From Halorubrum californiense DSM 19288 (lineage in GTDB: Archaea; Halobacteriota; Halobacteria; Halobacteriales; Haloferacaceae), in contig NZ_AOJK01000069.1 in NCBI RefSeq assembly GCF_000336875.1, forward strand, positions 9,926 through 54,844: DNA of 44,919 nucleotides. The letters are read 5' to 3'. Within the stretch, counting starts at the first letter, position 1. Every line of letters begins with the position of its first letter. This document shows positions 6,786-21,508 of this stretch, piece by piece. The notes beneath the pieces are model-generated. The model worked only from the letters and a program-made list of their open reading frames with translations, ran no database searches and had not been told where the DNA came from. The position numbers and the translations under genes were made by a program.

Positions 6786-7613
6786 GTGACCACCACCGAG
6801 CTGTTGATTGCCGTCCTCGCCGGAATCGTTCAGGGCGTCGTCGAGTGGCTCCCCGTGTCGAGCCAGGGCAACCTCTCGCTCGTACTCACCCTAGTCGGCA
6901 TGGATCCCGCGGTCGCGGTCCAGCTCGCCTTGTTCCTCCAAGTCGGCACAACGCTGTCGGCCGCGGCCTACTACCGCGACGAACTCGCCACGGCGCTCCA
7001 CGCGACCCCCAGCTGGCGGCCGGCCACGGCATATGAGGGCGAACACGCGCTCGTCTCGTACATCGTGGTAGCGTCACTCTTCACGGGGATTGTCGGCATT
7101 CCGCTGTACGTGTTCGCCGTCGATCTCGCCGGGCAACTCACGGGTGGCGTGTTCATCGCAGTCATCGGCGTGTTGCTCATCGTCACCGGGCTGCTCCAAC
7201 GCCTCTCGAACACCGTTAGTATGGGCGGGCGAGAGACACCCTCGCTTGTCGACTCAGTGCTTATTGGCAGCGCCCAAGGGTTCGCCATCCTGCCCGGTAT
7301 CTCGCGGTCTGGCGTGACGGCAAGCACCCTGCTGTTCCGTAGTTACGACCCGCCGAGCGCGTTTCGGCTCTCTTTCCTGCTGTCCATTCCCGCGAGCATC
7401 GGGGCCGCGCTTCTCACCCTCGCGGGCACCGGCGGACTCCCGGGGATCAATCCTGTGCCAGCACTCATCGCGCTCGGCGTGAGCGCCGTTGTGGGGTACC
7501 TCACGATCGACGCGCTCATGCGGGTCGTCGAACGGGTTCCGTTCGCAACCGTGTGTTACGCACTCGGGGCAATCGCGATTATTGGCGGGGGCGGCATCGC
7601 GCTCGTCGTGTGA
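6786..7613 (+). CDS. uppP: Undecaprenyl-diphosphatase-like protein UppP/BacA
   Basis: The protein is 275 residues and strongly hydrophobic, with both UppP active-site motifs: QGVVEWLPVSSQGN (16-29) and LPGISRSGVT in the middle of the chain. The family dephosphorylates polyprenyl diphosphate to recycle the lipid carrier of surface glycans; in archaea the carrier would be a dolichol-type lipid. The residue equivalent to His30 of E. coli BacA is Asn29 here, a possible change in catalysis or a clade feature. The start is GTG 6786; a TATA-like cttaag lies about 30 nt upstream. Confidence 0.88.
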   Translation: MTTTELLIAVLAGIVQGVVEWLPVSSQGNLSLVLTLVGMDPAVAVQLALFLQVGTTLSAAAYYRDELATALHATPSWRPATAYEGEHALVSYIVVASLFTGIVGIPLYVFAVDLAGQLTGGVFIAVIGVLLIVTGLLQRLSNTVSMGGRETPSLVDSVLIGSAQGFAILPGISRSGVTASTLLFRSYDPPSAFRLSFLLSIPASIGAALLTLAGTGGLPGINPVPALIALGVSAVVGYLTIDALMRVVERVPFATVCYALGAIAIIGGGGIALVV

Positions 7614-12131: not shown

Positions 12132-12151
12132 CCCACGACTTCAGTCGTGGG
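12132..12151. repeat. IS200/IS605-type terminal hairpin, solo
   Basis: CCCACGACTtcAGTCGTGGG is a perfect 9-bp hairpin of the kind that ends haloarchaeal IS200/IS605 elements and closely resembles the hairpins at 24554 and 24828. It overlaps the last codons and stop of the PIN gene at 12141, so the present end of that gene comes from an IS end. No transposase gene is next to it. Confidence 0.6.
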
Positions 12152-12563
12152 TCACTGACTCCCAGATCGTTTCGTACCCGGCGTCGCGGATGACACCGTC
12201 AGTCGTGAGGATCGCATCCGTCTCCCGTGCGCGGTGGCTGGCGACGATCAGCCCGTCGTGGATGCTGAACTCGTCCAGCAGTTGCGCGTACGCTGCCAGC
12301 TCCGGCTCGTCGACGGGAGCGACCGAGACCGGGCCGTTTCCGACCAACGCCTGCCGGGCGTCCTCGGGCGTCCCGGTGAGTGTGATCCCTCGGACGTCCG
12401 TGTCGCGGGAGACCGAGTACAACACCGCAAAGAGAGCCGTGCTCGGTGCCTCGATAACCGTTTCCCCGGCCTCTGCCTCGGCGAACACCTAGTCGGCCCC
12501 TTGCGGGGGCGCATCGACGAGATACGCCAGTAGCGAGACGGCGTCGGCGGTGTACGTCGCCAT
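12141..12563 (-). pseudogene. PIN-domain toxin (VapC-like) interrupted by an amber codon
   Basis: From ATG 12563 the frame reads ATYTADAVSLLAYLVDAPPQGAD, then TAG at 12489-12491, and continues in the same frame with VFAEAEAGETVIEAPSTAL and HDGLIVASHRARETDAILTTD. Joined, these give a normal PIN toxin of about 140 residues with the first Asp (residue 7) before the stop and the later acidic residues after it. A GTG follows the TAG, but restarting there would lose the first catalytic Asp, so the toxin is probably dead. The stop codon at 12141 lies within an IS-type hairpin. The antitoxin upstream is intact. Confidence 0.8.
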
Positions 12564-12564
12564 C

Positions 12565-12825
12565 TCACGCGTCCTCGTAGTTACGGTCGCGGCGGTCGCG
12601 GACGCGCTGACCCAGCTCCGCTGCGATCTCTTCGCGCTTCTCCGCCGAGGTGCCGTCGGGAACGAGCATCCCACGGCCACCAGTACGGGTGCGCTTCTTT
12701 ACGACGATCCCCTCGTCGGTGTCCACCCAGACGACCTCGTCACCGGGCTCAAGGTCGTACTTTTCGCGGAGTTCGTGCGGGATCGTCGCCTGTCCCTTCT
12801 CCGTGATACGTGTGGACTTGCTCAT
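12565..12825 (-). CDS. AbrB/MazE-type antitoxin
   Basis: The 86-residue protein begins SKSTRITEKGQATIPHELREKYDLEPGDEVVWV, a textbook AbrB/SpoVT swapped-hairpin DNA-binding domain, followed by a charged C-terminal helix that would bind a PIN toxin. ATG 12825 is preferred to an upstream in-frame start because the motif begins at residue 2. The toxin ATG lies 1 nt after its stop. The toxin carries a nonsense codon, so the antitoxin may persist as a regulator. Confidence 0.87.
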   Translation of the reverse strand: MSKSTRITEKGQATIPHELREKYDLEPGDEVVWVDTDEGIVVKKRTRTGGRGMLVPDGTSAEKREEIAAELGQRVRDRRDRNYEDA

Positions 12826-13112
12826 ATTCAGTAATACCTTCTGTAATACCTTAGGCTTGTGGGAGGACAGGCTGCCGCCATTCAAGCGTGTACAGTGGTT
12901 TAGCGGCAATTAATATGACTGACTCAGACAGCACGAAGGACACCGGCAAAAAACCTCGCGGAGGAAACAGCGCGTCCAATCAGAGAGTTCAGTACCGACG
13001 AGAGCGGCACCGAACGACACCAGTTCACTGGGACAGGATTTCACACCGGCTTGGACACAGCCCCGACCGGAGATGGTCCAATCAAGATCAAAAACAGCGA
13101 CGACTGTGACCC
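12826..13112. other. Spacer with an unassigned small open frame
   Basis: Between the AbrB gene and the truncated opsin copy there is an ATG at 12915 on the + strand, after an AT-rich aattaatatg, giving a 64-codon frame (TDSDSTKDTGKKPRGGNSAS...). A second frame over 12990-13110 reads more like protein (HQFTGTGFHTGLD and an acidic end), so this could be a frameshifted remnant. I recognise no family. Confidence 0.3.
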
Positions 13113-13379
13113 TCAGTCGGTGCCCGTGTCCACCGCAGGAGCCGTCCGTTTCCCCACGTCGCTGCCGGTAGTTCCATCGCTTCCAGCGTCCACCTCAGCC
13201 GTTAGCGTCTCCTCGTTCGCGAACACGAAGCCAGCGAACCCGACCCGAAGCAGGAGGTCGAGGTACTCCAAGGTCACCGTCGCGGTGAACTGATCGAGGA
13301 GCCCGGCGATCTGGATCACCGTCCACGCGATCAACACGTAAATGCCGGCGGAGACGAACCGCACCGTCGACGGCTCATT
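13113..13379 (-). pseudogene. Truncated second copy of the opsin-like gene
   Basis: This is a paralogue of the opsin-like protein at 15227-15967. EPSTVRFVSAGIY matches residues 3-15 of the full protein and is joined in frame to VLIAWTVIQIAGLLD, matching residues 173-187, then to the whole C-terminus including YLDLLLRVGF. About 157 residues (helices A/B to early F) are missing and the start codon has been replaced by the IS end at about 13380. It cannot form a seven-helix receptor. The Arg at the retinal-lysine position is kept here too. Confidence 0.8.
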
Positions 13380-13387
13380 GACCTCCT

Positions 13388-13560
13388 CCCGCGCCTGAAG
13401 ACGCGGGAATCCCACCATAGGATTTCAGGCAGAGCGTACGCCCAGCCCTTTGGTTTCAAGACGCATACGTCCCAAGCGTCTCTTGCTAGGTAGCATCGGC
13501 TTGGGTGTCTTGCGGAGCGGTCAAACGCCCCCCATCCTCAGCCGAGTCATTGCCATCCGT
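13388..13560 (-). ncRNA. Putative TnpB guide RNA (omega-RNA/reRNA)
   Basis: In IS200/IS605 elements the 3' end of tnpB and the right-end hairpin are transcribed into a guide RNA whose last bases are the adjacent host sequence. Here the tnpB end, the spacer and the hairpin at 13388-13407 have this layout, and the guide would read into the truncated opsin copy. This is inferred from position only; the 5' limit is a guess. Confidence 0.4.
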
Positions 13561-14691
13561 GTGTTCTCTTGGCTGGCTCTCTCCACTGAGGTAGCGGTCT
13601 GCGATGTTTATCGCGCCGTTCACGTCCGCTTGGTACTCGTTTATCCAGCAGTCGTCATTTGTACACGTGAACGTCGCCTGTCGCGGACGTGACCCCACGT
13701 CACCGCACGCATGACACTCTTTTGACGTGTTGTGCGGGTTCACCGTCTCGACGGGAATCCCCTTTTCGATGGCCTTGTAGCGTATCTGCGCGTGGAGTTT
13801 GGCGAATCCCCAGCCGTGGAGCCGTCGATTCATGTATTCATCGTAGTCCATCGACTCCCGGATGTCTGTCAGGTCTTCTAAGACGAGAACGGGATTCTCG
13901 ACGGATTCGGCATACTCCACGACCTCGCGTGTAACCGTGTGGAATATATCGTCGATCTGATTCCACAAGTCGTCACCGAACGAGCCAGCGATACGCTCGC
14001 TTTCGCGCGTCTGGAGTCGGCGCGTGGCGGTGAAGTAGGTCTTGCGAAGCCGACGAACAGTTTTGCCCTCGTCGGCCCAGAGTTTTGGCACGGTCGGAGA
14101 ACCGTTGTCGTCGCGGTGACACACCGTGACGAGTGACGCTTCCCCAATATCCACCCCGATGGGCGTCCGTTCGTCCACGGACACCTCGGAGCGTTCCGCT
14201 ACGCTACGGGTGGCGGTAACGTGGAGATACCACGTTTCGTTCCGTTCGAACAGTCGACTCTCGCCCATTTCCGCGTCACCCGCGTTCAACGCTTCTAACC
14301 AGTTCCGCTGTTCGGGAGTTGGTTGGGTGGGCATCCAGAGGTGGTAGTCCTCGTGATGCGGGATTTTGACGTACCATTCGATGGCGTTCTCGGGCTTGTG
14401 GTCAAGCCGGAGCCCCTCGTTGGTGAAGCGGACGGGGTGATCGTCGTGAAGTTCGCTCGCGTTGTACGTCGTCGTGAGCTGCGGGACGTACTGTTTGAGC
14501 GCGTTCTTTGCGTACCCGCTCAGGTCATAGTCGACCACTATGTCGTTCGCTTCGGTCTGGGTGGTACATCGGGCGTCGAAGGCGTCGTGAAGCGCTTGCT
14601 GGTACGCCTCGCGTGTCTTACGAAGTTTCCGTCGCTTGTGCGCGTTCGGGTCCACTAGTTTCAGTTCGAGCGTCTTCGTGAGTTCAGTCAC
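13486..14691 (-). CDS. tnpB: TnpB RNA-guided nuclease of the IS200/IS605 element
   Basis: The 401-residue protein has a RuvC-like nuclease with all expected parts: PIGVDIGEASLVTV (first Asp), LVLEDLTDIR (Glu), a zinc ribbon with CHACGD and CTNDDC, and EYQADVNGAINIA (last Asp). TnpB cuts DNA matching its guide and helps keep the element at its donor site. The start GTG overlaps the tnpA stop. The length and motifs suggest a functional protein, so the element could be active. Confidence 0.93.
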   Translation of the reverse strand: MTELTKTLELKLVDPNAHKRRKLRKTREAYQQALHDAFDARCTTQTEANDIVVDYDLSGYAKNALKQYVPQLTTTYNASELHDDHPVRFTNEGLRLDHKPENAIEWYVKIPHHEDYHLWMPTQPTPEQRNWLEALNAGDAEMGESRLFERNETWYLHVTATRSVAERSEVSVDERTPIGVDIGEASLVTVCHRDDNGSPTVPKLWADEGKTVRRLRKTYFTATRRLQTRESERIAGSFGDDLWNQIDDIFHTVTREVVEYAESVENPVLVLEDLTDIRESMDYDEYMNRRLHGWGFAKLHAQIRYKAIEKGIPVETVNPHNTSKECHACGDVGSRPRQATFTCTNDDCWINEYQADVNGAINIADRYLSGESQPREHTDGNDSAEDGGRLTAPQDTQADAT

Positions 14692-15077
14692 GAATCGCCC
14701 TCCGTGTGTCGGTGAATGTATTTCTCGATTGTCTCATTCGAAACTTGCCCGGCGGTCCCTGCGTAGTAGCCTCGCGCCCATCCGATTTTTTCGCCGTCGT
14801 GGTCGGTATATCGGTGGTTGTACTTCCGCGAACTGATGCCTTTGAACCAGTTAGCGAGGAGTGCTGGTTCGTTCTTTGGTGGGCTACTAACGAACAGGTG
14901 AACGTGATCGGGCTGGACGGTGAGATCGAGTATTTCGACGCCTTTGTCGTCGGCTATTTCCTGGAGGATGGACCGGACACGGCTGGCGACCTCGCCTGTG
15001 AGTACCGAGTTGTGGTACTTCGGCACCCACACTATGTGGTAGTTGAGGTTGTAAGTCGCGTGCCGCGTGGTCTTCAT
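14688..15077 (-). CDS. tnpA: IS200-type Y1 transposase TnpA
   Basis: The 129-residue protein begins with NYHIVWVPKYHNSVL and carries the HUH motif in QPDHVHLFVS and the catalytic tyrosine in YYAGTAGQVSNETIEKYI. Y1 transposases cut and rejoin single-stranded element ends at hairpins. Length and motifs are complete. It is the first gene of the element and overlaps tnpB. Confidence 0.94.
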   Translation of the reverse strand: MKTTRHATYNLNYHIVWVPKYHNSVLTGEVASRVRSILQEIADDKGVEILDLTVQPDHVHLFVSSPPKNEPALLANWFKGISSRKYNHRYTDHDGEKIGWARGYYAGTAGQVSNETIEKYIHRHTEGDS

Positions 15078-15226: not shown

Positions 15227-15967
15227 TCAATCCGCACTCGTGTCCATCGCAGGAGCCGCGCGTTGTCCCACGGCGCTGCCGGGAGTCCCGTCACTCTCGG
15301 CGTCCACCTCGGCAGACAGCGTTTCCACGTTCGCGAACACGAAGCCGGCGAAGCCGACCCGAAGCAGGAGGTCGAGATACTCCAGGGTCACCGTCGCGGT
15401 GAACGTATCGAGCAGCCCGGCAATCTGGATCATCGCCCACGCGATCAACACGCCGAACGCGAACAGCGCGAGGTTCCGCGTCTTCTTGTAGAACAGCTCG
15501 CGGGCGGGCGGCTGCGCGGCCGCCGCGCTCGCAAGCGGCCCGAAGAACAGCCCGAGTAAGATGAGGTAGCCGACGAGGATCGCGCCGGTGCCAGCGAGCG
15601 CCAGCGGCCCCTCGAACACCGCGGCGAAGTCGTACCCCAGCCGCATGACGACGATGAGCGCGATCACGCCGCCCACGGAGCGCCGGGCGGCGCCGGAGAC
15701 GAACGCCGCGAACCCGAACAGGAACGGGTACGCCACGTAGTCGGTGAGCAGCTGGCCCCCCTCCAGCGTCCCGTTCGCGACGGGGAAGGTGCCGATCCCG
15801 GCGCCCCACAGCCCCACGCCGAGGCCGCTCGCCACGACCACCGCGACGAACGGGTAGCAGTACTTTCGGAGGGCCGGCGGCTTGCGCCGCGCCAGCGCCA
15901 ACAGTACGACCGCGGAGACCGCGTAGATCCCGGCAGAGGCGAACCGGACCACGAAGGGCTCAATCAT
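15227..15967 (-). CDS. Microbial-opsin homologue lacking the retinal lysine
   Basis: This 246-residue, seven-helix protein follows the Htr-like transducer gene with an 8-nt overlap. It aligns nearly without gaps to Natronomonas sensory rhodopsin II (from memory): LLTDYVAYPFLFGF to the helix C block, TRNLALFAFG to the start of helix F (RNL at 164-166 in both), and EYLDLLLRVGF to VYLDLVTKVGF of helix G. The Schiff-base Lys205 is Arg203, counterion Asp75 is Thr75 (an Asp follows at 76 in place of Trp76), and pocket residues Trp171, Tyr174 and Trp178 are Phe, Leu and Ala. Asp201 (as Asp199) and the transducer-contact Tyr199 (as Tyr197) are kept. It is probably a receptor that no longer binds retinal covalently. 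The ligand is unknown. Confidence 0.78.
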   Translation of the reverse strand: MIEPFVVRFASAGIYAVSAVVLLALARRKPPALRKYCYPFVAVVVASGLGVGLWGAGIGTFPVANGTLEGGQLLTDYVAYPFLFGFAAFVSGAARRSVGGVIALIVVMRLGYDFAAVFEGPLALAGTGAILVGYLILLGLFFGPLASAAAAQPPARELFYKKTRNLALFAFGVLIAWAMIQIAGLLDTFTATVTLEYLDLLLRVGFAGFVFANVETLSAEVDAESDGTPGSAVGQRAAPAMDTSAD

Positions 15968-17537
15968 CGGCGCTCACCTCCGCGTCGCCGGCGGTCGGTG
16001 CTGGAGCGGCCGCGGAGCCGGCATCGCCGGAGTCCGCCGGCGTCTCGAACTGCGCGAGCCGCTCGGTGAGCGACGCGGTCCGCTCGGAGAGCGCCGTCGC
16101 CGTCTGCGCGAGGTCGCCGACCGTCTCGGCCGTCTCGTCCGCGGTTTCGGCGAGCGACCGCGCGCGGTCCGCGGCGTCGGTGGCCGAGCCGTGGACCGCC
16201 TCGACGCGCGCGGCGACCGACTCGATCCCCTCGGCGCCCTCGTCGGTCGCCCGCGCGATGTCGCCCATCGCGACGTCGACGTCCTCGACGGTCCCCGTCA
16301 GCTCCTCGATCGCGTCGCCCGCCGCTCGGACCGCGGCGGTCGTCTCGTCGAGCTCCATCATCGTCCGGTCCATCTCGCCGGCGACCGCCGACACGTCCTC
16401 GGTCACCTCGCCGATCGTCGCCTCGATCTGCGTCGTCGACTCTCGTGTCTCCTCGGCGAGCCCCTTCACCTCGTCGGCGACGACCGCGAACCCGTCGCCG
16501 TCGCCGCCCGCCCGCGACGCCTCGATCGAGGCGTTCAGCGCGAGGATGTTGGTCTGCTCGGCGATGTCGGCGATCACGTCGGTCGTCTCCGCGACGCCGT
16601 CCATCCGGTCGTCGAGTCCGGCCACGAGCCCGTCGAGGTCGTCCAACAGATCGCCGATCTCGACGATCGCCTCCACCGCCTCGGTCGCCCGCGCTTCGCC
16701 CTCTTTACCGAGGTCAGCCGCGGCGCTCGCGTCGCCGGCCACCTCGTCGGTCGTCGACGCGATCTCCTCGACGGTCGCGGAGAAGTCGTCGGTGTCGGCG
16801 GCCGTCTCGCGCAGCCGGTCGGTCTGCTCGTCCAGTTCGTCGGCCAGCTCGCGCATCTCGTCGGCCACCTCCGCGTTCATCTCGGCGACCGCGTCCGCCT
16901 CCGCTGCCATCTCCTCGCTCGTCGCCTCCACGTCGCCCGCGAAGGCCTGGATGTCCTCGATGGTCGTCGAGAGTCCGCCGGTCATCTCGTTGTACGCGGC
17001 CGTGATGCGCTCGACCGCGTCGACCTCGCTCTCCTCGGGGAGCCGGCGCGTGAGGTCGCCCTCGGCGGCGTCCTCCATGGCGCCGCCGATTTCCTCGGCG
17101 CGCTCCAACAGGGTGTCCGACAGCTGTTCGGCCTCCTCGCGGGCCGCCTCCGCCTCCGACTGCGCCCGCTCGGACTCGGCGACCGCGTCCCGGAGCGACC
17201 GCCGCGTCTCGTCGAAGGCGTCGAACAGCCGCCCGATCTCGTCGCCGCGGTCGGACGTGGCGCTCGCGTCGAACTCGCCGCGCCCGACCGCCTCGGCCGT
17301 CTCCGTCAGCCGCCGGAGCTCGACCGCGACGTTGCCGATCAGCACGATTCCCAGCAGCCCGAGGTTCAGCGTGACGACGACGCCGACCGACGCCAGCGCC
17401 GCCGTCGCGGCGTCCGCCGTTCCGACCGTCGCGACGTGGCCCGCGAAGAGCGCGACGAAGCCGAGCGTCACGGCGAGCGTCAGGAGGACGGCCGCGCCGA
17501 CCCGGCGGCCGTACCGCGCGGTGATCGCGTTCAACAT
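15960..17537 (-). CDS. HtrII-like methyl-accepting transducer
   Basis: The 525-residue protein has two N-terminal helices (about 13-35 and 48-70) joined by a short loop with no large sensor domain, as in sensory-rhodopsin transducers. HAMP-like segments follow (about 71-125 and 145-200), then a long coiled-coil signalling region with the conserved tip EQTNILALNASIEASRA (327-343). TLNLGL in TM2 aligns with GINLGL of NpHtrII, so Asn58 matches Asn74, which contacts Tyr199 of the opsin. The Glu43 position is His34. Overlap with the opsin-like gene matches htr-sop operons. It should pass signals to CheA/CheW and methylation enzymes, none of which are in the window. Confidence 0.88.
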   Translation of the reverse strand: MLNAITARYGRRVGAAVLLTLAVTLGFVALFAGHVATVGTADAATAALASVGVVVTLNLGLLGIVLIGNVAVELRRLTETAEAVGRGEFDASATSDRGDEIGRLFDAFDETRRSLRDAVAESERAQSEAEAAREEAEQLSDTLLERAEEIGGAMEDAAEGDLTRRLPEESEVDAVERITAAYNEMTGGLSTTIEDIQAFAGDVEATSEEMAAEADAVAEMNAEVADEMRELADELDEQTDRLRETAADTDDFSATVEEIASTTDEVAGDASAAADLGKEGEARATEAVEAIVEIGDLLDDLDGLVAGLDDRMDGVAETTDVIADIAEQTNILALNASIEASRAGGDGDGFAVVADEVKGLAEETRESTTQIEATIGEVTEDVSAVAGEMDRTMMELDETTAAVRAAGDAIEELTGTVEDVDVAMGDIARATDEGAEGIESVAARVEAVHGSATDAADRARSLAETADETAETVGDLAQTATALSERTASLTERLAQFETPADSGDAGSAAAPAPTAGDAEVSADD

Positions 17538-17672
17538 ATGTTCTCGTCCAGGAGGAACGCGATGCCCTATTTAGGAGTGAACTCCAAATTACCAGATTCG
17601 AAAACGGACGTGGTGCGAGCGTTTCGGCGGATCGGGACTGGTGTTTTTCCCCCGGCCGCGCCACGGACGGGC

Positions 17673-18122
17673 ATGCCCAGCGTCAGCGACACGTACATCG
17701 AGAACCGCCAGCGCGTCCAACCGACCCACACGAACAACTACGCCTCCGCGCACGGGGGGAACGTCGTCAAGTGGATGGACGAGATCGGCGCCATGTCGGC
17801 GATGCGCGCCGCCGGCGAGACCTGCGTCACGGCCAAGATCGACGGGCTCGACTTCAAGCGCCCCGTGCCGCAGGGCGACACCTGCGTCATCGAGTCGTAC
17901 GTGTACGCGGTCGGGCGCACGAGCCTCCGGACGCGGATCCGCGCGTACCGCGAGTCGCCGCGCACGGGCGAGCGCGAACTCACCACGGAGTCGTACTTCG
18001 TGTTCGTCGCCGTCGACGCCGACGGGAACCCGACGCCGGTCCCGGAACTCGAGATTACGGGCGAGCGCTGCCGCGAACTCCGCGACGAGGCGCTCGCCGC
18101 GGAGCCGGACGAGGACAGATAA
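17673..18122 (+). CDS. Hotdog-fold acyl-CoA thioesterase
   Basis: The 149-residue protein shows the 4HBT pattern of YciA-type acyl-CoA thioesterases: THTNNYASAHGGNVVKWMDEIGAMSAMRAA (central helix and Gly-rich turn), DFKRPVPQGDTCVIESYV, and TTESYFVFVAVDADGNPTPVPEL. These enzymes hydrolyse acyl-CoA. ATG 17673 is chosen because the family begins right there; the frame is open far upstream but antisense to the transducer gene. It is divergent from that gene across a 135-nt spacer. Confidence 0.88.
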   Translation: MPSVSDTYIENRQRVQPTHTNNYASAHGGNVVKWMDEIGAMSAMRAAGETCVTAKIDGLDFKRPVPQGDTCVIESYVYAVGRTSLRTRIRAYRESPRTGERELTTESYFVFVAVDADGNPTPVPELEITGERCRELRDEALAAEPDEDR

Positions 18123-18251: not shown

Positions 18252-18557
18252 GTGCCCGCCACGGTCGTGTACCGTGACGAATCCGAAAAATCGGACGACA
18301 GTCGGTACGAGATGGTCGCGTGGCAGGTCCCGGAAAGCGAAGAGTACCCGGAGGGGCTGAAGTACAGCTTCCAGTACATGGACGCTGACGGCGACACGCT
18401 CCTCCGGTACGACAACGCGCCGCACCACCGGGACGTCGGCAGATACTATCGGCACGAGGCGGGAGAAGTCACGAAACTGGACTTCACCGGTCTCACAGCG
18501 CTAATCGACGACTTCCAATCGGAGGTAAACGACATCTATGCCAGACGAACCGACTGA
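18252..18557 (+). CDS. DUF6516 (TumE-like) toxin
   Basis: The 101-residue protein has DUF6516 features: SRYEMVAWQVPESEEYPEGLKYSFQYMD, LLRYDNAPHHRDVGRYYRHE (the DNAPHH block), and LIDDFQSEVNDI. It starts with GTG 18252 and overlaps the following HTH gene by 20 nt, toxin first, the reverse order of the pair at 11085-12046. An AT-rich gttattattg about 40 nt upstream may be the promoter. It looks complete while its antitoxin gene has an in-frame stop. Confidence 0.75.
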   Translation: MPATVVYRDESEKSDDSRYEMVAWQVPESEEYPEGLKYSFQYMDADGDTLLRYDNAPHHRDVGRYYRHEAGEVTKLDFTGLTALIDDFQSEVNDIYARRTD

Positions 18558-19005
18558 CACCGACCCCGCCCACGACGAGTTTATTCCGGACCCGAGCGAC
18601 GCCGAGTACCCGTCGACGCTGCGTATCACGTCGCTTCCGGCGGACCGGGCACAGGCGGCGGCGATCGAACGCGCCGAACGCTGAGAGGACGGCGAGGCGG
18701 TCCCCCACGTGGTCAACTTCGAGGACCGAGCGCGGCTCCGTCGCCTGCTCACCGACCGGCGGATGGAACTCTTGGAAGCCGTGATGGAACGGCCGCCCGA
18801 GAGCATCCGCGCGCTGGCGGAGCGGCTCGACCGAGACGTCCACACCGTCCACGACGACCTGTCGCTGCTGGCCGACTACGACATCGTCCACTTCGAGACC
18901 GACGGCCGCGCGGAGAGGCCGTACGTGCCATACGAGACGGTTCGGATCGAAGTGGAGTTCGGACTCCCCCGCGGCGACGAATCGGAGTCGACCGCGTCCG
19001 CGTGA
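18538..19005 (+). pseudogene. HTH antitoxin gene split by an in-frame TGA
   Basis: From ATG 18538 the frame encodes an acidic lead (DEFIPDPSDAEYPSTLRITS, IERAER), meets TGA at 18682-18684, and continues in the same frame with EDGEAVPHVVNFEDRARLRRLL and a winged helix (ESIRALAERLDRDVHTVHDDLSLLADYDIV). In related haloarchaeal antitoxins the two parts are one protein, so the TGA is probably a mutated codon such as CGA. GTG 18709 could restart translation and make a 98-residue protein with the whole DNA-binding domain, so function may survive without the N-terminal part. Confidence 0.72.
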
Positions 19006-19063: not shown

Positions 19064-19930
19064 TCAGTAGTCGCCGAGCACGCCGAGCCGCCGCGCCCGC
19101 CCCGTGGCGAACTGGAAGACGAGGTAGCCGCCGAGCAGGTAGCCGACCGCGACCGCGACGAGCAGCGCCAGGTCGGCGACCGGGAACTCCCACAGCCGGA
19201 TCCCGTCGACCATCGCGCGCTGGAGCATGGCGCTGCCGTGCGCCAGGGGGAGGAAGCGCGTCCACGGGAGGTCGAAGACGGGCGCCGAGATCAGCGCGAC
19301 GAACCCGAACTGGAGGAGGTTGAGCCAGTTGCCGATCCGCTTGTACAGCACCGTCACCCCGCCCGCGGCGAAGCCGAGTCCCAGCACCGAGACGATCGAC
19401 AGCCCCGCGACGGCGACCACCGTCACCGGGGCGAGGCTGAGCCGCGTTCCGGTCGCGAGGAGCATGACCGCGAGGATCACCGCGCTCGTGAGGAACGTCC
19501 GCACCACCTTCGCGACCCCCTTCAGCAGCGCGACGGGCGCGAAGCCGAACGGCGTGGTGATGTGGCGTTCGAGGGTCCCCCACTGCACCTCGCTGCCGAT
19601 GTCGTTCGACACCGACGAGTACGCGCCCACCGACAGCGTCCACAGGAAGTAGCCGACGACGATCCCCTCGATCGAGTCCGTCAGCGCTTGTCCGGCGAGC
19701 AGCTGCCCGCCGAGGAACAGCGCCGCGAAGAAGAACAGCGACACCACGATCCCGCCGATCGCGTTGGCCGGGTACCGCACGAATATCAGGAACTCGCGGT
19801 ACAGCACCGCCCGGGCGAGATGGTAGTAGGTGGCCGGCCGCGGCTCGTCCTCGGCCCGTGCTGTGTCGGTGGGCGCACTCGATTCGGCCGCGGTCCCCGA
19901 TGTTCCCGGGGAAGTCGCGTCCGCGCTCAC
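19064..19930 (-). CDS. ABC-2 type transporter permease
   Basis: The 288-residue protein has a hydrophilic Ala/Thr/Glu-rich N-terminus (about 35 residues) and six membrane helices in the ABC-2 pattern: YREFLIFVRYPANAIGGIV before the first helix, a large central hydrophobic block, and LPLAHGSAMLQRAMVDG near the end. It would form the membrane channel of an exporter with the ATPase encoded just upstream (4-nt overlap). The substrate is unknown; such pairs export lipids, drugs or polysaccharide. Confidence 0.85.
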   Translation of the reverse strand: MSADATSPGTSGTAAESSAPTDTARAEDEPRPATYYHLARAVLYREFLIFVRYPANAIGGIVVSLFFFAALFLGGQLLAGQALTDSIEGIVVGYFLWTLSVGAYSSVSNDIGSEVQWGTLERHITTPFGFAPVALLKGVAKVVRTFLTSAVILAVMLLATGTRLSLAPVTVVAVAGLSIVSVLGLGFAAGGVTVLYKRIGNWLNLLQFGFVALISAPVFDLPWTRFLPLAHGSAMLQRAMVDGIRLWEFPVADLALLVAVAVGYLLGGYLVFQFATGRARRLGVLGDY

Positions 19931-20994
19931 CGCGGGTCACCCCCGCGACCGGCGCCGAGGTCGCTCCCCGTACGTTCGAGGAACACCTCTTCGAGGTCGG
20001 GCTGGACCGTGCGGACGTCCGAGACGGTGACCCCGGCCGCGCGAAGCGCGTCCATGATCTCGTAGAGGCGGTCGCCGCCCGCCGCGACCGTCATCGCGGG
20101 CGGGCGCGCGTCGCGGTCGACGTCGACGACCTCGAACCGTTCGCGGAGTTCGGAAATTGTCTCCGCGTCGAGGTCCGGGCTCGCCACGCGCACCGCGTCG
20201 CTCGCGGCCGCGCCGAGCAGCGCCTCGACGGTGTCGTCCGCGACGATCCGCCCGTTCGACAGCATGACGACGCGGTCGCACACCGCCTCGATCGTCGTCA
20301 TGTCGTGACTGCTGACGACGATGGTGAGCCCCTCCTCGACCGCGAGGCGGCGGAGCTCGGCCCGGAGCGTCCGCGCGCTCTCCACGTCGAGCCCCAGCGT
20401 CGGCTCGTCGAGGAAGACGAGCTCGGCGCCGCCCGCCAGCACGCTCGCCAGCGACACCTTCTGTTTCATTCCCCGCGAGAGGTCCCGCACCGGCGTGTCA
20501 GCCTTGTCGGCGAGGTCGAGGCGGTCGAGCAGCCGGTCGTGACGCGCCGCCACGGAGTCGGGGTCGACGCCGCTGATCGTCGCGAAGTAGCGCAGGTTCT
20601 CGCGGACCGTGAGCCGCCAGTAGTCGTTGCGCGCGCCCTCCAGCATCGCGTCCACGTCCGCGTACGCCGCCCGGCGGCCGTCGCGCACGTCGTTGCCGAA
20701 CACCCGCACCGACCCCGCGTCGGGGATGACGATCCCCAGCGCGCACTTGATCAGCGTCGTCTTCCCCGCGCCGTTCGGGCCGAGCAGGCCGACGACCGAC
20801 CCGCGCTCGACGGTGAGACTCACGTCGTCGACCGCGACCACCGCGTCGTCGCCGTCGCCGAACCGCTTCGTGAGGTCCTCGACCGCGAGGGCGGGCGGGC
20901 CGGTCGTCTCGTCTGGCGATACGTCGTCGGGTTCTTCCCGCGTGTCGCCGCGCTCGCGGGGACCGCCACGCGCGCTCGTCGCGCTCCGTGCCAT
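19927..20994 (-). CDS. ABC transporter ATP-binding protein (exporter type)
   Basis: The 355-residue protein has Walker A GPNGAGKTTL, signature LSRGMKQKVSLASVL, Walker B LVFLDEPTLGLD, and the switch His in VVSSHD, followed by a C-terminal domain ending QPDLEEVFLERTG, typical of ABC-2 export ATPases. ATG 20994 is preferred over an upstream in-frame start at 21138 because a palindromic TATA box at 21018-21027 lies 24-33 nt before it. It is divergent from the gene at 21050 and co-transcribed with the permease. Confidence 0.9.
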   Translation of the reverse strand: MARSATSARGGPRERGDTREEPDDVSPDETTGPPALAVEDLTKRFGDGDDAVVAVDDVSLTVERGSVVGLLGPNGAGKTTLIKCALGIVIPDAGSVRVFGNDVRDGRRAAYADVDAMLEGARNDYWRLTVRENLRYFATISGVDPDSVAARHDRLLDRLDLADKADTPVRDLSRGMKQKVSLASVLAGGAELVFLDEPTLGLDVESARTLRAELRRLAVEEGLTIVVSSHDMTTIEAVCDRVVMLSNGRIVADDTVEALLGAAASDAVRVASPDLDAETISELRERFEVVDVDRDARPPAMTVAAGGDRLYEIMDALRAAGVTVSDVRTVQPDLEEVFLERTGSDLGAGRGGDPR

Positions 20995-21010
20995 TGGGTT
21001 CGATAGGGGC

Positions 21011-21034
21011 CGAGCGGGGATATATCCGCGCTCG
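21011..21034. promoter_or_regulatory. Palindromic bidirectional TATA box
   Basis: GGATATATCC at 21018-21027 is a perfect palindrome within a 24-bp near-perfect dyad (one mismatched pair). Its centre is about 28 nt from ATG 20994 on the minus strand and about 28 nt from ATG 21050 on the plus strand, right for leaderless transcripts in both directions from one shared TATA element. Confidence 0.6.
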
Positions 21035-21049
21035 ACATCCACGAAACGC

Positions 21050-21508
21050 ATGGACCTCGACCGGTTCGCGACGGACGCCCCCGCGGACGACGCGCCCGGC
21101 GACGCCCGCGTCTGCGTCGTCGCGACGCAACCGGACACGTTCGAGCGCTGCCGGGCCGGCTTCTACCCCGCGCCGCGCTCGTACGACCGCACTCGCACCG
21201 AGTTCGCGTACATGGCCTTCTACCGGACCGCGCCGGTGTCGGCGATCACTCACTACGCCCGCGTCGACGCCCGCACCGAACAGACGCGCGGCGAGCCGGG
21301 CCCGATGGACGAAGCAGACTGGGCGGCGCTCATCGAGCCGTTCTCCGAGGAGCGCGTCGCGGTCGTCTTCGAGTTCGACGAGCTCGTGCCGCTCGATAGC
21401 CCGGTCGAGAACGACCTGAACGGCGTGCGCGGCGCGTGGTACTGTACTGTCGCCAACCTCCGCGAAGCGACGACGCTGTCGGGGCTGCGCGAGTCGGCCG
21501 AGACGTAG
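21050..21508 (+). CDS. Hypothetical protein
   Basis: This 152-residue protein has no signal peptide or membrane helix. It has conserved-looking aromatic blocks (FAYMAFYRTAPVSAITHYARV, VRGAWYCTVANLREA) and an acidic N-terminus. I do not recognise the family. The start ATG 21050 fits the shared TATA palindrome. It is divergent from an ABC exporter operon and convergent with the BtuF-like gene. Confidence 0.65.
   Translation: MDLDRFATDAPADDAPGDARVCVVATQPDTFERCRAGFYPAPRSYDRTRTEFAYMAFYRTAPVSAITHYARVDARTEQTRGEPGPMDEADWAALIEPFSEERVAVVFEFDELVPLDSPVENDLNGVRGAWYCTVANLREATTLSGLRESAET

Follow-up and report, generated by a model that had tools for sequence, protein, structure and literature searches.

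A conserved opsin-related protein and HtrII-type transducer pair in Halorubrum californiense, and a possible helix-C/helix-G charge pair

Introduction

Haloarchaeal opsin homologues that lack the retinal-binding lysine have been recognised since 2016, when a survey of 170 haloarchaeal opsins identified 48 such proteins and named them opsin-related proteins, or ORPs (Becker et al., 2016, PLoS One; PMC4915679). Group A ORPs, found mainly in Halorubrum, have arginine at the Schiff-base position and no longer have a retinal pocket (W76 to D, Y174 to L, W178 to A); Tyr199 is retained, and 15 of 16 adjoin a HAMP/MCP transducer (PMC4915679). Transcripts of ORPs were detected and the native protein was not, and the ORP of Hrr. 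distributum produced no 480-580 nm band with added retinal (PMC4915679). Eight ORP-bearing species without canonical opsins are also without crtY and brp. ORPs of fungi and other organisms outside the haloarchaea lie apart from the clade of haloarchaeal ORPs and represent separate losses; non-light taxis was put forward as the function of haloarchaeal ORPs (PMC4915679). The main text of that study makes no mention of a counterion or salt bridge, and the post-2016 papers searched here gave no ligand or function for haloarchaeal ORPs. In sensory rhodopsin II (SRII), Asp75 is the Schiff-base counterion and Tyr174 is essential to phototaxis (PMC3274258). A 1997 paper, as it is cited in PMC5292967, reported constitutive signalling when the interhelical salt bridge between the Schiff base and Asp73 is broken.

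Here we describe an ORP-transducer pair in a 44,919-nucleotide stretch of the Halorubrum californiense DSM 19288 genome (contig NZ_AOJK01000069.1), hereafter the window. The pair is real and conserved, but it belongs to a class already known since 2016, so that a sequence-only reading of the same DNA, which took such a pair to be undescribed, had been overtaken by Becker et al. (PMC4915679).

Results

An opsin-related protein and its transducer

The receptor locus comprises two genes:

15227..15967, minus strand: group A opsin-related protein (ORP), 246 aa, from its open reading frame, SRII match, predicted fold and orthologue alignment
15960..17537, minus strand: cognate HtrII-type transducer, 525 aa, with Pfam MCPsignal (5e-39) and HAMP (1.6e-10) domains and an NpHtrII match

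Both are on the minus strand, and the transducer shares an 8-bp overlap with the start of the ORP; the coordinates and overlap given in the sequence-only reading agree with the open reading frames. A Pfam search of the ORP returned zero matches. In the PDB it matched Natronomonas pharaonis SRII (NpSRII) with an E-value of 4.4e-7 as a single sequence and 1.1e-18 as a family profile, the latter bearing out the opsin homology that had been proposed for this protein. The AlphaFold2 model has seven helices (pLDDT 86.9, pTM 0.81), and among PDB entries it is matched best by SRII and SRII/HtrII structures (TM scores of about 0.78-0.88).

In the alignment the retinal-lysine position is occupied by Arg203, helix C carries Asp76, and Tyr197 falls at the transducer interface. 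The retinal cage is gone (Trp76 to Asp76, Trp171 to Phe171, Tyr174 to Leu174 and Trp178 to Ala178), the SRII Arg72 position is Gln72 and the Thr204 position is Leu202. All of the residues quoted in the sequence-only reading, namely RNL at 164-166, YLDLLLRVGF at 197-206, Arg203, Thr75, Phe171, Leu174, Ala178 and Tyr197, are found as described; that reading did not include the helix-C carboxylate Asp76, which lies one residue from the SRII counterion. The protein has several features of group A, among them homology to sensory opsins, seven helices, a Lys-to-Arg replacement and an adjacent HAMP/MCP transducer, and has neither the helix-G retinal lysine nor the aromatic cage that characterise sensory rhodopsin II. 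Loss of the retinal pocket is read here from the alignment, the absorbance data coming from an orthologue only (PMC4915679).

The transducer consists of two transmembrane (TM) helices, a short extracellular loop, a HAMP domain and an MCP signalling domain, with no extracellular sensor domain. Its first 120 residues match NpHtrII (1.3e-12), and it is HtrII-type in having two TM helices, HAMP and MCP signalling domains, and homology to the TM part of NpHtrII. Asn58 aligns with NpHtrII Asn74, whose number was checked by counting back from Phe83 in the G83F structure 5jjn, in agreement with the earlier equation of these two residues. The extracellular loop is only ~15 residues long, as judged by eye from the alignment, which would make the ORP the obvious sensing part. 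Contact residues and gene pairing together suggest that the two proteins form a physical complex.

The genome also encodes bacteriorhodopsin, halorhodopsin, and an SRII (at G000:C64) that has an HtrII-like transducer of its own. It has archaellin genes and CheW domains, including one in a 769-aa frame that is probably CheA. The host has other ways of sensing light, and it has the equipment for swimming.

Conservation and selection across Halorubrum and beyond

An intact ORP relative (at least 55% identity) is present in 24 of 52 Halorubrum genomes, that of the window included, and missing from the other 28; genome G125 has a frame-split ORP and genome G136 only a C-terminal remnant. Eleven positions are invariant in 25 full-length Halorubrum ORPs: Gln72, Asp76, Tyr80, Arg109, Tyr112, Asp113, Asn165, Asp187, Tyr197, Asp199 and Arg203. 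Arg203 is also kept in 6 distant relatives, and a transducer adjoins every full-length ORP relative in the 31-row set. Both genes are under purifying selection, with dN/dS relative to close orthologues of about 0.18-0.40 for the ORP (residues 1-217) and 0.12-0.26 for the transducer. Divergence of the ORP correlates with that of the transducer (r=0.66 within the Halorubrum core and 0.99 over the whole set), as expected for genes inherited together.

In a tree of 128 rows, the canonical Lys clade is set apart from the ORPs (SH-aLRT 99) and the window ORP clusters with those of Halorubrum. Lys-bearing orthologues were sought and none was found, the Lys hits all belonging to the separate canonical clade. 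The sequence-only reading had asked whether Arg203 is conserved in orthologues beside transducer genes, and it is in all 25 Halorubrum sequences. The broader suggestion, that selection acts on the complex and not on retinal binding and that the pair may sense something other than light, is favoured by the conservation in orthologues of both Arg203 and the transducer linkage and by low dN/dS; as a hypothesis it had already been published in 2016.

Decay of the ORP family was considered and is ruled out by the conservation and low dN/dS, single lineages nevertheless losing the pair. At locus L052, in genome G125, the ORP is split into two frames at ~codon 100 beside an intact transducer, indicating either a recent pseudogene or a sequencing error. 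One Halorubrum genome (G111, locus L051) has, in addition to an ordinary group A pair, another Arg-type ORP of 42% identity that is paired with a transducer of its own.

Arginine 203 and the helix-C acid

We sampled ORP relatives across the order starting from Arg types, and the proportions that follow are accordingly not population frequencies. Position 203 is Arg in 64 of 104 lysine-less relatives, representing five family codes, and another residue in 40 (Leu 21, Val 6, Phe 5, His 3, Ser 2, Thr 1, Ala 1, Tyr 1). An acid is present at position 75 or 76 in 63 of the 64 Arg types (the exception being L110) versus 1 of the 40 others, a protein with His at 203. The same is true of 23 of 24 Lys-bearing opsins, the exception being a halorhodopsin. 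When all single and adjacent-pair columns were compared using nine residue classes, the acid at 75/76 was the best separator of Arg and non-Arg types apart from column 203 itself.

The acid is Asp76 in the Halorubrum clade, and Asp or Glu75 with Tyr76 in a small Arg clade nested inside the group B-like clade. The tree implies three changes of state at position 203 among ORPs, giving 2-3 independent pairs, too few for the significance of the Arg/acid covariation to be established with the tree accounted for. That Arg203 covaries with a carboxylate on helix C, placed at the counterion position or next to it, is therefore suggestive rather than proven on these sequence comparisons. Of four divergent ORPs in genus codes g22/g23, three (L108, L178 and L180) combine Ser or Tyr at 203 with loss of the helix-C acid, whereas the fourth, their relative L107, keeps Arg203 and Asp76.

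With representatives in at least five of the order's family codes, the Arg type is an established haloarchaeal receptor family not confined to Halorubrum.

A local rearrangement downstream of the receptor

Three features lie downstream of the ORP:

14688..15077, minus strand: tnpA, IS200-like Y1 transposase of an IS200/IS605-type element (Pfam Y1_Tnp, 8e-38)
13486..14691, minus strand: tnpB of the same element (Pfam Cas12f1-like_TNB, 1.4e-16)
13113..13418, minus strand: second, truncated copy of the ORP, at the element's right end (blastn to the intact ORP and orthologues)

The IS element is no part of the receptor system. In the truncated copy, presumed non-functional, the N-terminal ~15 codons are joined to ~codons 173-246. 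The shared C-terminal part is 91-92% identical to the orthologues L034 and L042 versus 86% to the adjoining intact ORP, and dS to close orthologues is higher for the intact ORP (0.35-0.72) than for the transducer (0.20-0.61); both observations could be accounted for if a recombined allele had replaced the original ORP. The deletion in G136 fuses the first ~25 codons of the transducer to the ORP C-terminus, with an ORP breakpoint at ~codon 173 as in the truncated copy of the window. A deletion that joins the transducer N-terminus to the ORP C-terminus with this ORP breakpoint lies at L046:5929-6219 (plus strand), the same place as L057, in the metagenome-assembled genome Halobacteriales archaeon SW_8_68_21.

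Further out, the neighbourhood includes the following genes:

19927-21138: ABC ATPase, matching the published ABC transporter neighbour
6786-7613: BacA, matching the published undecaprenyl-diphosphatase neighbour
17673-18122: putative hydrolase, from its translation and the published neighbourhood

Nearly all orthologous loci conserve DNA at the hydrolase position (17632-18116). The truncated ORP is followed directly downstream (12141-12909, minus strand) by a MazE/AbrB-type antitoxin gene and then by a gene of 115 aa, PIN-like by eye, for which Pfam gave no match. Beside the receptor locus (18252-19005, plus strand) are a TumE-type toxin gene and then an HVO_A0114-type HTH gene, likely a toxin-antitoxin pair.

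Discussion

A proposed latch and its alternatives

On balance we think it probable that the pair is a non-photochemical taxis receptor in which a permanent salt bridge between helices C and G takes the place of the Schiff-base/Asp latch. The ORP would act as a chromophore-less seven-helix receptor subunit, docking via helices F and G on the two TM helices of the transducer as SRII does (Tyr197-Asn58). Arg203 would provide a fixed positive charge in place of the protonated Schiff base and would be held by the helix-C carboxylate, Asp76 here and Asp75 or both in other lineages, so that the Arg203/carboxylate pair may retain the C-G interhelical salt bridge that is the OFF latch in SRII. A stimulus able to break or reprotonate the latch, such as a small molecule, an ion, pH or membrane voltage, could then switch the transducer, the non-retinal signal being relayed from the ORP by the HAMP and MCP domains to CheW/CheA and the archaellum. 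With Tyr174 replaced by Leu and the Thr204 position occupied by Leu202, the relay in the ORP cannot equal that of SRII. Counting against the mechanism, the frame-split G125 and remnant G136 copies show that the pair is dispensable in some lineages. We propose more tentatively that Arg-type ORPs in general are a chromophore-free sensory rhodopsin switch, that is, a taxis receptor gated directly by an ion, proton, voltage or ligand that arose via a charge-conserving substitution, the Leu types having abandoned the latch.

The same polar residues could instead line a binding site. The ORP would then be GPCR-like: its former retinal pocket, open on the extracellular side, would bind a ligand from solution or from the membrane, with Arg203 and Asp76 as ligand contacts and no latch. 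Such a pocket was modelled and ligands were docked in it by Becker et al. (PMC4915679), and Arg203, Asp76, Tyr80, Arg109 and Asp113 are conserved polar residues in the membrane part. However, the pocket derives from template models and a direct charge pair fits the Arg/acid covariation at least as well, leaving the ligand pocket unlikely, if still a serious candidate. We regard as improbable a receptor that senses nothing, in which the ORP is a leftover scaffold that stabilises or tunes its partner and the pair is being lost. The split and remnant copies, the truncated second copy in the window and the absence of an intact copy from more than half of the Halorubrum genomes (28/52) are what such a process would leave, but low dN/dS, invariant core residues in 25 species-level sequences and retention of the Arg-type receptor with its transducer in five family codes are not. 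That the ORP is still a photoreceptor, using non-covalent retinal or the alternative chromophore left open by Becker et al. (PMC4915679), is very improbable despite two Brp/Blh-type retinal-synthesis genes in the genome, given the missing 480-580 nm band of the orthologue with retinal, the absence of crtY and brp in the eight species (PMC4915679) and the loss of cage residues Trp76, Trp171, Tyr174 and Trp178. For the favoured salt-bridge latch, the Arg203/acid covariation offers a concrete and cheap mutational test of what a retinal-free opsin senses via an Htr transducer.

Comparison with known systems

Fungal ORPs and the Guillardia and bacterial 'Rh-noK' proteins are likewise type 1 opsin homologues without the lysine, but unlike the window ORP the non-haloarchaeal ORPs are not reported with HtrII-type transducers in PMC4915679. 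Group B ORPs (PMC4915679) resemble it more closely in being lysine-less SRII relatives, many beside transducers, and differ in that the lysine is replaced by Leu or some other hydrophobic residue and that they have Gly75, Tyr76 and a retained Arg72; sequences of this type form a clade of their own in the tree. The SRII-HtrII system of N. pharaonis has in common with the window pair its fold, helix F/G interface, Tyr199/Asn74 contact, transducer-opsin gene order and short-loop transducer, whereas the retinal lysine, retinal cage and Tyr174/Thr204 relay are absent from the window ORP. The closest correspondence is with the group A ORPs (PMC4915679), which share the genus, the Lys-to-Arg replacement, the W76 to D, Y174 to L and W178 to A changes, the retained Tyr199 and the adjoining transducer. 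Those group A neighbours that the published description names as a thioester hydrolase, an ABC transporter and an undecaprenyl-diphosphatase also agree with the window, which differs in local details only, these being the IS200/IS605 element and the truncated second ORP downstream. Beyond the 2016 description, the present analysis samples relatives more widely, puts forward a testable latch model on the Arg/acid covariation and documents a rearrangement at the locus.
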